In this document: positions 18,312 through 22,624 of the stretch, one piece after another
Layout of the letters: the number at the start of each line of letters is the position of its first letter
How positions within the stretch are numbered: the first letter of the stretch is position 1
From: Chloroflexota bacterium
GTDB lineage: Bacteria; Chloroflexota; Dehalococcoidia; Bin125
Direction: 5' to 3'
Assembly: GCA_028874365.1 (NCBI GenBank)
Contig: JAPPJZ010000072.1
Span: 1 to 57,680, forward strand
Length of the DNA stretch: 57,680 nt
Notes under the pieces: model-generated
Seen by the model: the letters and a program-made list of their open reading frames with translations, nothing else
Database searches by the model: none
Told to the model about the DNA's origin: nothing
Program-made: the position numbers and the translations under genes

Positions 18312-19598
18312 CTAACGCGGACGTAGCCGGTCGCTCGCGGCTCCCGAGTCGATCAGCCCGAGAATGCGCTCGTCTGAGTATCCCAAGATCTCACGCATGA
18401 CGGGCACAGTATCGGCAGCAAACAACGGGGCGGCGTTCTTTGGCGGCGACGGGGTCTCGGACAGGCGAAACGCGGCCTGCGGTGCCGGCGACAGACCGAG
18501 CTGGAGGTGATGTAACCCGCCAACCGATTGCCTGGCCAACACCTGTTCGTCGCGTAGCAATGTCCGCGCCCCCATGACCGGTGAGACGGGGACGCCGGCG
18601 TCCTGCAGCCGAGAGGAGAGCTCGAACGGATCGAATCTGAGCGTCCATGCCCCGAGTAGCTCGTCGAGTTCCACCCGATGATGCCAGCGGCGTAGACCAG
18701 TTCTGAACCGGCGGTTGGCACAGACGGCCTCATCCTGCCAAACCTCCAACAGCCCTTGCCACTCCGTGTCGTCGCGGCAGGCGATCGCAATCCAGGAGTC
18801 GGGTTCACCGAGTGATTCTTGTGTTGGATAGACGCCGTGCGGCGCCGCCGACGAGTGCTCGTTGCCGATGCGCGTCGGCTCCCTCCCGGACAGTTGCTGG
18901 CCAACCATCGCCTCGCCGATCAGCTGGAGTTCGCCTTCCAGCATCGCGAGTTCGACCGTCTGGCCGCCGACGCGGCAGCGGGCCATCAGCGCCGCCACGG
19001 CTGACAGAGCCGCGCTGAGTCCCGCGTTCTGGTCGCAGTAGAAGTTGCCCGGCTTGAGCGGGGAGCCGTCCACATAGCCGGTCAGCCAGGACATGCCGCT
19101 CATCGCGTCGATGCCGGGGCCGTACGAGATTCGGTCGCGCCAGGGACCGGACTTGCCGAACGCAGGCATCGACACATAGATGATCTGCGGATTGCGTCTG
19201 CTCAACTCGTTCCATTCGAGCCCAAAGTTGCCCATCACCCGGGGCGAGTAGTTCTCCAGAACGACGTCCGACTGCTCGACCAAGTCGAGGAACACATCGC
19301 GCCCGGCCTCAGTGGTGAGGTCGAGTGCCATCGAGCGTTTGCTGTTCGCCAGCTCGTTCTGCCGCGGCTCACGGTTCCAGGGTTCGTCGGGACCTTCTCC
19401 GCGATGCGGCAGCGCCGAAGCGGGCTGAGCCGGCCGAGCCCACGGTGTCTCAATCCTGATGACCTCGGCGCCCAAGACGCCGAGCAGTACGGTCGCCGTT
19501 GGCCCTGCAACGGCCGTCGTCAAATCAAGGACCCGAATCCCGTCCAGTGGGCGATCGCTCGAGCGCGGGTACGGCACAAGGTGCGGCTCAGGCAACAC
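18312..19598 (-). CDS. CaiB/BaiF (type III) CoA-transferase, second of pair
   Basis: Transfers CoA between acids without a covalent enzyme-CoA thioester. The N-terminal LDGIRVLDLTTAVAGPTATV and LGAEVIRIETPW are family hallmarks. VVLENYSPRVMGNFGLEW carries the GxGxD-region equivalent and the Asn-Tyr-Ser-Pro loop. I use GTG 19598, which has GGAGG seven bases upstream and gives an 11-base overlap with the upstream CaiB gene. The longer frame from 19658 would add 20 non-family residues. With its upstream homologue it may form a heteromeric transferase that activates the operon substrate. Confidence 0.88.
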   Translation of the reverse strand: MLPEPHLVPYPRSSDRPLDGIRVLDLTTAVAGPTATVLLGVLGAEVIRIETPWARPAQPASALPHRGEGPDEPWNREPRQNELANSKRSMALDLTTEAGRDVFLDLVEQSDVVLENYSPRVMGNFGLEWNELSRRNPQIIYVSMPAFGKSGPWRDRISYGPGIDAMSGMSWLTGYVDGSPLKPGNFYCDQNAGLSAALSAVAALMARCRVGGQTVELAMLEGELQLIGEAMVGQQLSGREPTRIGNEHSSAAPHGVYPTQESLGEPDSWIAIACRDDTEWQGLLEVWQDEAVCANRRFRTGLRRWHHRVELDELLGAWTLRFDPFELSSRLQDAGVPVSPVMGARTLLRDEQVLARQSVGGLHHLQLGLSPAPQAAFRLSETPSPPKNAAPLFAADTVPVMREILGYSDERILGLIDSGAASDRLRPR

Positions 19599-20790
19599 CG
19601 GCGCGCCTCCAGCGAACCCGTTCCTTCTGAGTACCGAGAGCGGCGTTGTCGGCCCCAAGCCACGGCGCAGGGCCGTCCCCCCATGGCGTTGCGCCGAACC
19701 GTACCGCCGGGCCTGGCGCCCGGTAGTCGCCTCCGCGAGGATGCGACGTGGACTGCCAGAAGTCGCGGGATGCGTGATGACCGTCGGCGTCGGACACTAC
19801 TTCAGAGGGCATCAACACCTCAGTGAACGGAACTCGCAGCTCCTGCGCTCGTCTCACCACCTCACGACGTGGGGTCTTCATCAGCATCGGAGCCATCAGC
19901 TCATCGACCTCGTCGGCATGGCCCATCAGTGTCGCCAATAGCTCGGGTTCAGCCAGCCGCGGTTGATCGAACAGCACCGCCATCGCTTCGGGATAGCGGT
20001 TGTTGCAATGAGCGTGGACCCAGCCATCGGCGCAAGGTCGGATCGTGGACGGGTACAGATGGCCGGGGCCGAACCCGACCAGGCGGGCGCCGTTTCTGAC
20101 CGGTTCACGATCGGAGAACCACGCGTGTTGATAGCCCCCGCCCAGCAAAAACGCCAATGCCTCGCACACAGCGGTATCGATTATCTGGCCGCCCCTGCGC
20201 GAGTAGATCGCCGACAGCACACCTAGCGCGGCGTGGAGGCCGGCCTGCAGATGCCCCTGCTCGCCCCATGCCTTGACCGGTTCCCTATCCGGCTCGCCCC
20301 CAATCCGTAGGTAGCCGCCGGCCGCGTAGAGCGTAAGCTCTGAGCCGAACCACTCTGACTTCGGGCCTGCCGTCCCGTACGGAGTGATCGTGCAAACCTG
20401 AAGATCAAAGTGCTGACTGCGGATTGCGGTCGGCTCCAGTCCGAGTTCGGTCCAATGGCGCCGGTCGAGGTCGACGATCAGTACGTCGGACTCGCACAGC
20501 ATCTGGTGCAACAGTCGACGGCCGGCTGCGCTGCCCACCTCCAGTCGGACCGACCTCTTTCGTCGGTTCAGATGGAGATGCGTCGCGCCGCCCTCGACGT
20601 CGGGCCGGTCGTCGCGAAACGGGCCCCGGCGTCTCAGGGGAGTGCCCGACGACGGCTCGACCATGGTGACGGTCGCCCCGAATCCAGCCAACAATCGACC
20701 GCAGTACGCGCCCGCAGGAGTCTCGGAGACCTCCACGACCTGGATCCCGTTCAGCGGTCCTGAGTCAGGAGCGGGTTCTTGGTCAGTCAC
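19588..20790 (-). CDS. CaiB/BaiF (type III) CoA-transferase, first of pair
   Basis: Divergent homologue of the next gene, 400 residues. It begins GPLNGIQVVEVSETPAGAYC after a short leader and has FGATVTMVEPSSGTPLRRRG in the Rossmann-like first domain. The catalytic-Asp region typical of active CaiB enzymes is hard to place here, so it could be a non-catalytic partner. The frame is open further upstream, but GTG 20790 is preceded at exactly six bases by TATCCT, matching the leaderless promoters of rseP, ccdA and metH. It is the first gene of the minus-strand operon. Confidence 0.82.
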   Translation of the reverse strand: MTDQEPAPDSGPLNGIQVVEVSETPAGAYCGRLLAGFGATVTMVEPSSGTPLRRRGPFRDDRPDVEGGATHLHLNRRKRSVRLEVGSAAGRRLLHQMLCESDVLIVDLDRRHWTELGLEPTAIRSQHFDLQVCTITPYGTAGPKSEWFGSELTLYAAGGYLRIGGEPDREPVKAWGEQGHLQAGLHAALGVLSAIYSRRGGQIIDTAVCEALAFLLGGGYQHAWFSDREPVRNGARLVGFGPGHLYPSTIRPCADGWVHAHCNNRYPEAMAVLFDQPRLAEPELLATLMGHADEVDELMAPMLMKTPRREVVRRAQELRVPFTEVLMPSEVVSDADGHHASRDFWQSTSHPRGGDYRAPGPAVRFGATPWGDGPAPWLGADNAALGTQKERVRWRRAGVA

Positions 20791-20796
20791 CGAGGC

Positions 20797-20802
20797 AGGA
20801 TA
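20797..20802 (-). promoter_or_regulatory. Putative leaderless promoter -10 box of the CoA-ester operon
   Basis: Read on the minus strand, TATCCT is followed by GCCTCG and then the GTG start at 20790. No ribosome binding site is present between them. Confidence 0.45.
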
Positions 20803-20863
20803 CCGCTGGATCGGCGTTACCCTGCCCGTCACACCGTTCCCATCATTCATCCAGGAGCAGACC

Positions 20864-21742
20864 ATGACGGATGTTGGCTTCATCGGCGTTGGCAAGATCG
20901 GCAACCCCATGTGCGCGAACGTGATCAAGGGCGGTCACCGAGTCGTCGTCCACGACCTGGTCGAAGAGCACGCGGCGAACCTGATTGAGCTTGGCGCTGT
21001 GTGGGCCGAGTCCCCCGCCGACGTCGCGTCCCAGAGCGAGGTCGTATTGACTTCGTTGCCGGGACCCCCGGAGGTGACGGCGGTGCTGCGCGGCGCAGAC
21101 GGCATCCTTGCGGGCGCTGAGCCCGGGCTGGTCTGCTTCGACCTCTCGACCAACCTGCCCTCGACGGTCGAGCTGCTCGCTGAGCGCGCCGCCGAGCACG
21201 GTGTGATCTTCCACGATTCCCCTGTCTCAAACGGCGTTCAGGGGGCAATCGATGCCACGCTGGCGGTCATGGTCGGCGGCGACCAGGCATCGTTCGAGCG
21301 GTACAAGCCGGTGCTGCAGTGCATCGGCAGCAACGTCTTCTACATGGGCGAGTTGGGCATGGGCGCCCTGACCAAGATCATCAACAACATGGTCGGCATC
21401 ACCTCGATGCAGGTGCTGATCGAGGCAACCGTGATCGCGGAAGCCGCCGGGCTCGACCCGCATCGCGCGCACGAGGTGATGAGCGTCGCTTCGGCGCAGC
21501 ACTATGTCGGCAATATGCCAGCATTACTTCAGCGTGAGTTCGACGATCCGTCGTTCTTCCTCAAGTGGGCGGCCAAGGATGTCTCGCTGGCCGTGCAGGT
21601 CGCGCGGGAAACCGGCATCCCCGCGCCGATCGCCTCAGCGGCCAGCGACATGTTGATGCGGGCGAAGAATCGTGGTCACGACATGAAGGCGGTCACGGCA
21701 ACGCTGCTGTCGGCTGAAGAAGACGCCGGCGTGTCTCAATAG
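20864..21742 (+). CDS. 3-hydroxyisobutyrate dehydrogenase-like NAD(P)-dependent oxidoreductase
   Basis: Beta-hydroxyacid dehydrogenase family, 292 residues. GFIGVGKIGNPMCANV is the Rossmann glycine motif; DSPVSNGVQGA is the substrate-binding Ser-Asn-Gly segment, and the Lys in GALTKIINNM is the catalytic residue. The typical all-helical C-terminal domain follows. The start is ATG 20864 with AGGAG at 20853-20857; a long upstream extension of the frame has no family similarity. It is divergent from the CoA-transferase operon and might oxidise a related hydroxyacid. A TACCCT box at 20818-20823 is a possible promoter element. Confidence 0.92.
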   Translation: MTDVGFIGVGKIGNPMCANVIKGGHRVVVHDLVEEHAANLIELGAVWAESPADVASQSEVVLTSLPGPPEVTAVLRGADGILAGAEPGLVCFDLSTNLPSTVELLAERAAEHGVIFHDSPVSNGVQGAIDATLAVMVGGDQASFERYKPVLQCIGSNVFYMGELGMGALTKIINNMVGITSMQVLIEATVIAEAAGLDPHRAHEVMSVASAQHYVGNMPALLQREFDDPSFFLKWAAKDVSLAVQVARETGIPAPIASAASDMLMRAKNRGHDMKAVTATLLSAEEDAGVSQ

Positions 21743-21775: not shown

Positions 21776-21781
21776 TACACT
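21776..21781 (+). promoter_or_regulatory. Putative leaderless promoter -10 box of the CcdA-like gene
   Basis: TACACT plus six bases (GACCCC) and the ATG at 21788; the same 12-base pattern, one base different, precedes rseP. Confidence 0.5.
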
Positions 21782-21787
21782 GACCCC

Positions 21788-22624
21788 ATGGCGATCGCAA
21801 CCGGCACGGCAGTGGGCGGCCAAGCAACGGCACGGCGAGTCGTCTTCCTCCACGCTGCAGCATTTGTGCTCGGTTTCAGCGTCGTGTTCGTCGCATTGGG
21901 TGCCCTGCTCGGTGCCCTGGGCTCCGCGTTCCAGAACGAGCTGATCTGGTTCCAGCGCGTCGCGGGCGCGATGCTCGTCGTGCTTGGCCTGCATTTGGCC
22001 GAAGTGATCACGATCCCCTTCCTCTATCGCAGCTTCCAGGTCGGGGCTCCGGGCAGTTCCACCGCAGTGCAGCCGGCGGAGGGAGCGTCCCGAGCGCGTG
22101 CCGCCGCCGACTATGGACGCTCCCTGGTGGTCGGCGTTGCGTTTTCCGTGGGCTGGACGCCGTGCGTCGGACCGATACTGGCCGGCATTCTGGTGCTTGC
22201 GCTCGACTCCGCTTCGCTTTTCCAGGCGGTGATACTGCTCATTTGCTACGCGGCCGGACTCGGGATCCCGTTTCTGCTGGTCGGGGCCACCTTCGGCGCA
22301 TCAACCAAGTTCTTGCGCAAGCTCAACCGCTGGATGCCACTCATCGGCGTCGTCTCGGGAGTACTGCTGGTCTTCGTCGGTATGTTGATCGCGCTGGACA
22401 GGGTCGTCGTCCTGAACGAGGCGTTGGGCAGCTTCGGAGTGGATATCGTCGCCGGGTCGGACGGCTCTTCGACCGAGATGCTGGACCTCAACGCCGGCTC
22501 GGCCGCGATCGCCTTCGTCGGGGGCTTCGTGAGCTTCATCAGCCCCTGTGTCTTGCCGCTCGTCCCGATCTACCTCGGCCACCTGGCCGGGATCGGCTCC
22601 GAGCAGACGATGCGCTCCGCCTAG
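21788..22624 (+). CDS. CcdA/DsbD-type thiol-disulfide transporter, apparently circularly permuted
   Basis: CcdA-family proteins pass reducing power from cytosolic thioredoxin across the membrane for cytochrome c assembly. This 278-residue protein has six hydrophobic segments and both family cysteine motifs, but in unusual order. It opens with what is normally the second helix (VVFLHAAAFVLGFSVVF). GWTPCVGPILAGI comes in the third segment, and it ends with FVSFISPCVLPLVPIYLGHL, normally the first helix. The last residues would join naturally to the first. No helix-1 coding sequence exists between this gene and the upstream stop at 21742. Its stop shares a CTAG with the convergent antiporter stop. 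Confidence 0.75.
   Translation: MAIATGTAVGGQATARRVVFLHAAAFVLGFSVVFVALGALLGALGSAFQNELIWFQRVAGAMLVVLGLHLAEVITIPFLYRSFQVGAPGSSTAVQPAEGASRARAAADYGRSLVVGVAFSVGWTPCVGPILAGILVLALDSASLFQAVILLICYAAGLGIPFLLVGATFGASTKFLRKLNRWMPLIGVVSGVLLVFVGMLIALDRVVVLNEALGSFGVDIVAGSDGSSTEMLDLNAGSAAIAFVGGFVSFISPCVLPLVPIYLGHLAGIGSEQTMRSA

Follow-up and report, generated by a model that had tools for sequence, protein, structure and literature searches.

The open reading frame at positions 21788 to 22624 of the window, by which we mean the whole stretch of 57,680 nucleotides of Chloroflexota DNA that was analysed, was confirmed by sequence comparison to encode a CcdA (DsbD_TM) protein with circularly permuted transmembrane helices. 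We put the probability that it is a working, naturally circularly permuted CcdA at about 0.9; the fold and the cysteines Cys126 and Cys254 are kept, whereas the function is inferred and no biochemical data are available. The features of the gene are the following:

21776 to 21781, plus strand: -10-like box TACACT (leaderless promoter), 6 nt 5' of the ATG
21788 to 22624, plus strand: gene for the permuted CcdA of 278 aa, with stop codon; helices ordered 2-3-4-5-6-1
21818 to 21922, plus strand: canonical helix 2, first in the chain (HMM, model)
21932 to 21997, plus strand: canonical helix 3 (HMM, model)
22088 to 22207, plus strand: canonical helix 4 with the TPCVGP motif; redox Cys126 at 22163-22165
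22217 to 22294, plus strand: canonical helix 5 (HMM, model)
22304 to 22393, plus strand: canonical helix 6 (HMM, model)
22394 to 22486, plus strand: 6-1 linker, acidic, predicted non-cytoplasmic, connecting the former C- and N-termini
22487 to 22618, plus strand: canonical helix 1 with the SPCVLPLVP motif, C-terminal; redox Cys254 at 22547-22549

The first helix of the chain is preceded by a new N-terminal tail, MAIATGTAVGGQATARR, whose counterpart in the alignment is the old loop between helices 1 and 2, and the C-terminal helix 1 segment finishes with a new C-terminal tail. The initial annotation had placed the SPCVLPLVP helix last and the start of the chain at helix 2, and matches to Pfam, to the CcdA structure 5vkv and in a rotation test all bore this out. 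The Pfam profile DsbD_TM (PF02683; 59.2 bits for the whole protein, curated cut-off 27.1) matched twice in one frame, with profile positions 33-214 first and 7-44 thereafter. It was the only profile to exceed its cut-off, and the Pfam models of DsbB and VKOR gave no match above theirs. In a phmmer comparison with 5vkv, the only clearly related solved structure, residues 239-269 of the window protein aligned with 5-35, 19-70 with 39-90 and 112-210 with 113-207, which is the pattern of a circular permutation. Compared with a normal-order CcdA from the same class (L067), residues 6-217 matched 38-255 at 40% identity and residues 241-272 matched 11-42 at 53% identity.

The rotation test used an HMM built solely from 46 normal-order CcdAs. 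The native chain gave two separate matches of 203.6 bits (profile 37-235) and 48.1 bits (profile 4-41), and the chain rotated at the 6-1 linker gave a single match of 253-254 bits that spanned profile positions 5-235. When rotations were scanned, the top-scoring ones began inside this linker without exception. The same gain was obtained for 57/59 proteins with the window order (type A) and for 29/29 proteins with the order 4-5-6-1-2-3 (type B); the two type A proteins without a gain are partial sequences. The protein thus has six transmembrane helices homologous to CcdA helices 1 to 6, each present once as originally claimed and with both redox cysteines kept, in a permuted variant of the canonical order 1-2-3-4-5-6 with its N-terminal helix 1. 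The two cysteines, which belong to the PC motifs of helices 4 and 1, and their surroundings were invariant in 29 type A proteins.

Conservation of the gene and of its start

Each of the 15 genus genomes (87-97% identity) and all five genera of the family (57-81% identity) carry the permuted gene at full length and in the same order. A normal order or a helix 1 segment upstream was sought in these 20 genus and family genomes and was not found. Homologues in related genomes thus share the order, a check that the initial annotation had proposed, and together with the rotation test this upheld the reading of the gene as a permutation and not a truncation. Within the genus, pN/pS was 0.05-0.14 for the whole gene and 0.00-0.04 for the relocated helix 1. 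Purifying selection is therefore strong, most of all in this C-terminal helix, which indicates that it is translated and required.

The reading frame opens just past the stop codon of the upstream gene, about 45 bases before the ATG, and no helix 1 segment lies 5' of the gene. The ATG is the start of the open reading frame, with an alternative in-frame TTG 18 bases upstream. A leaderless promoter at the new start, as suggested by the initial annotation, gained support from the family, where 19/19 genes have a TANNNT box 6-7 nt 5' of the ATG. With a spacing of 5-7 nt, such a box preceded 19/19 family genes versus 3/44 large open reading frames of the window, and the -10 site at window positions 21776-21790 was conserved at the matching position in 18 relatives. 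The gene is monocistronic and no gene for a redox partner adjoins it. Elsewhere in the window, two tandem open reading frames resembling CoA transferases of the CaiB/BaiF type lie on the minus strand at 18312-20928, upstream of a dehydrogenase gene.

Two readings would deny that such a protein exists or is permuted, and we give almost no credence to either. The first, a tandem ccdA array that was wrongly assembled or binned (the initial annotation had kept a rearrangement or assembly error in such an array as its alternative), could be entertained because the genome is a draft of 82 contigs. It is ruled out by the identical order in 20 independently assembled family genomes, several of them with the gene on contigs of more than 400 kb, and the low pN/pS and the 66 permuted single open reading frames from a separate genome collection also speak against it; the order in relatives likewise excludes a truncation. 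The other reading is that helices 1-3 resemble helices 4-6 closely enough for a normal protein to be misread as permuted. CcdA does consist of two inverted repeats (PMC7329351), and short cross-matches between the halves occur. However, when a type B protein (G087) was compared with a normal-order protein (G128) of the same family, f50, the swapped halves matched with 149 and 137 bits at 61% and 65% identity, while the in-order cross-match reached 23 bits. Rotation, moreover, added about 50 bits for type A and doubled the score for type B against the normal-order HMM. These segment-by-segment scores exclude a confusion by pseudo-symmetry.

Topology, structure and function

In the permuted protein the loops between helices 3 and 4 and between helices 5 and 6 are positively charged and the 6-1 linker is acidic, consistent with unchanged helix orientations and cytoplasmic termini. 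As the former termini would share the extracytoplasmic side, each helix would keep its orientation and the new termini would lie in the cytoplasm. A cytoplasmic position of both termini fits the loop charges and the positions of the break-points, although it is inferred without topology data. An AlphaFold2 model computed from a 71-row alignment had a pLDDT of 77.4, a pTM of 0.71 and the helices as expected, and is of moderate quality. Foldseek ranked 5vkv first with a probability of 1.00 and an E-value of 0.12 (probability 0.97 with the first model). VIA-align paired model residues 14-227 with 5vkv residues 36-224 over 174 residues with an rmsd of 4.2 Å and a Z of 6.3, a modest value for a helical bundle, though the 5vkv row outranked the following rows. 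In the model, helices 2 to 6 thus appear to be in register with 5vkv; helix 1 cannot be superposed by sequential aligners, which keep the chain order.

The genome of the window has no DsbD_TM gene besides the permuted ccdA, and it also encodes one CcsA and one ResB. CcsA and ResB form the cytochrome c maturation system that is usually served by CcdA. Among relatives of the gene, one directly follows ccmB-ccmC (L106), another adjoins a further PF01578 gene (L083) and three lie upstream of a TlpA/redoxin-type gene (L110, L117 and L128), so that co-occurrence with cytochrome c maturation genes is seen both in this genome and in the neighbourhoods of relatives. The neighbours in relatives support an unchanged function, which we infer to be electron transfer in cytochrome c maturation. 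The permuted protein would receive electrons from thioredoxin in the cytoplasm and hand them to a TlpA/ResA-type protein outside, which would keep apocytochrome c reduced for the CcsA-ResB system. Helices 1 and 4 are the proposed elevator helices of CcdA; in the permuted chain, helix 1 would be made last and would be tethered by the outer linker only.

Further neighbours were noted in other genomes. In two Micrarchaeota loci (L110:2729-3808 and L117:2209-2694), the permuted ccdA abuts or overlaps the gene of the TlpA/redoxin-like protein; in these tiny archaeal genomes the two look like an operon of two genes. In two Anaerolineae loci (L136:1069-1848 and L145:2268-3080), DUF2085 membrane proteins, one of them fused to a glutaredoxin-like domain, are encoded downstream of the permuted ccdA and might be a redox partner.

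A genuine protein that has kept the fold and works with another cargo or partner than normal CcdA is improbable in our view. Such a change could follow from the different termini and the different attachment of helix 1, and would agree with the coexistence of normal and permuted copies in Nitrospira and Trueperaceae genomes and with the lack of a redox neighbour in the window. Set against this are the invariance of the cysteines and their surroundings in the 29 permuted proteins, the status of the gene as the sole DsbD_TM gene in a genome with CcsA and ResB, and the ccm and TlpA neighbours in relatives. We therefore favour a working CcdA with the usual role.

Distribution and origin of the permuted orders

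In a survey of 393 genomes of the class, type A was found in the whole family of the window and in one other genome (G024, L059). Type B was common in the class; by direct reading it was established in family f2, and f31 and f50 also have members with it. Among the matches listed in this survey, 36 cross the 6-1 junction without helices 2-3; they include six genomes of family f66, for which the order rests on the listed match alone. A pattern scan of a collection with one genome per species, limited to a single proline codon (CCG) and hence a lower bound, gave 68 hits, 66 of which were permuted single open reading frames (44 of type A, relatives of the window among them, and 22 of type B). The remaining two were a chance match beside a normal gene (L095) and a frameshifted gene (L141). 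Type A occurred in Anaerolineae, Thermoflexales, Caldilineales, Eremiobacterota, Trueperaceae, Nitrospira and Micrarchaeota, and in one MAG labelled Pyrinomonadaceae.

Several sequences in these sets deviate in other ways. The frameshift in L141, a Nitrospira lenta MAG, lies just before helix 1 (minus strand, ∼2456-2842) and reflects either a pseudogene or a sequencing error. Three type A proteins (L101, L106 and L128) are extended between helices 3 and 4 by about 100 residues that are mostly hydrophobic, and four normal-order CcdAs of family f33 (L069-L072) have a hydrophobic insert at this place together with an additional helix at the N-terminus. Two DsbD_TM-like proteins from Eremiobacterota (L179 and L180) have the helix 1 motif SPSSVPR, without the redox cysteine.

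Trees were built from un-permuted sequences. The three orders required 9-11 changes on them versus ∼38-49 with shuffled labels, and none of the bootstrap trees of the careful run grouped any order as a single clade. On the careful tree, the AU test rejected a single origin both of type A (p = 1.7e-5) and of the two types combined (p = 6e-38). For type B as one clade, p was 0.012 on the careful tree and 0.32 on the quick tree; the quick search had once missed a better tree. From these sequences, there seem to have been several order-change events. We do not claim a number, because the deep parts of the trees are poorly supported and genes have probably moved between lineages. Gains cannot be distinguished from reversions.

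The break-points seen lie only in loops 1-2 and 3-4, which are cytoplasmic. Downstream of the point where the helix 1 motif begins, complete type A proteins have 24-40 residues and type B proteins ∼100-112, with no values in between, so no break in the extracytoplasmic loop 2-3 was found among the permuted open reading frames; a break in loop 5-6 would be invisible to the pattern. In normal CcdA, the stretch from the helix 4 motif to the C-terminus and that from the N-terminus to the helix 1 motif add up to a median of 121 aa. The same stretch, internal in the permuted proteins, has a median of 125 aa in type A and 129 aa in type B. The linker thus corresponds to the old C-tail plus the old N-tail, as expected from a trimmed, in-frame head-to-tail fusion. 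The most likely route, which is inferred, is tandem duplication and fusion: two head-to-tail ccdA copies would fuse in frame, and the outer helices would then be lost as a new start and a new stop arose within a cytoplasmic loop. No ccdA-ccdA fusion that could represent the intermediate was found. We think it probable, with less confidence than for the window gene itself, that CcdA is a natural permutation hotspot that was rethreaded repeatedly in Bacteria and Archaea, with a cytoplasmic loop opened each time and the forms alternating among close relatives, as in family f50.

Relation to known systems

With canonical CcdA (5vkv) the window protein shares the six helices, the PC motifs of helices 1 and 4 and homology in every segment, and it differs in its C-terminal helix 1, its predicted cytoplasmic termini and its new 6-1 linker. 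DsbD has the same kind of transmembrane domain and electron-carrying cysteine pair, but there the domain is flanked by a soluble domain on either side and its helices follow the normal order, whereas the permuted protein, at 278 aa, consists of the transmembrane domain only. DsbB and VKOR are likewise thiol-redox membrane proteins, and theirs is the one published proposal of a circular permutation between families of helical membrane proteins, again via duplication and deletion. Theirs, however, is a four-helix fold with very low identity and would be one ancient event between families, unlike the repeated events inside one family described here.

DsbB/VKOR was proposed in 2015 as the first membrane-protein case, at very low identity (PMC4555120), and a review from 2020 stated that no circular permutation of a membrane protein had been observed (PMC7162841). 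We found no published permuted CcdA or DsbD in the open-licence literature, to which the search was confined, and an earlier notice is not excluded. Profile tools give only partial matches for permuted genes, which are therefore easily mistaken for fragments. Hardly any natural circular permutation has been reported for helical membrane proteins, and the evidence in CcdA is direct, at 40-65% identity, and recurrent. If CcdA is indeed a permutation hotspot, it would be the clearest and first recurrent circular permutation in a polytopic membrane protein. With the permuted CcdAs it becomes possible to test how much depends on the order in which helices enter the membrane, on which side the termini lie and on how the moving helices are tethered.
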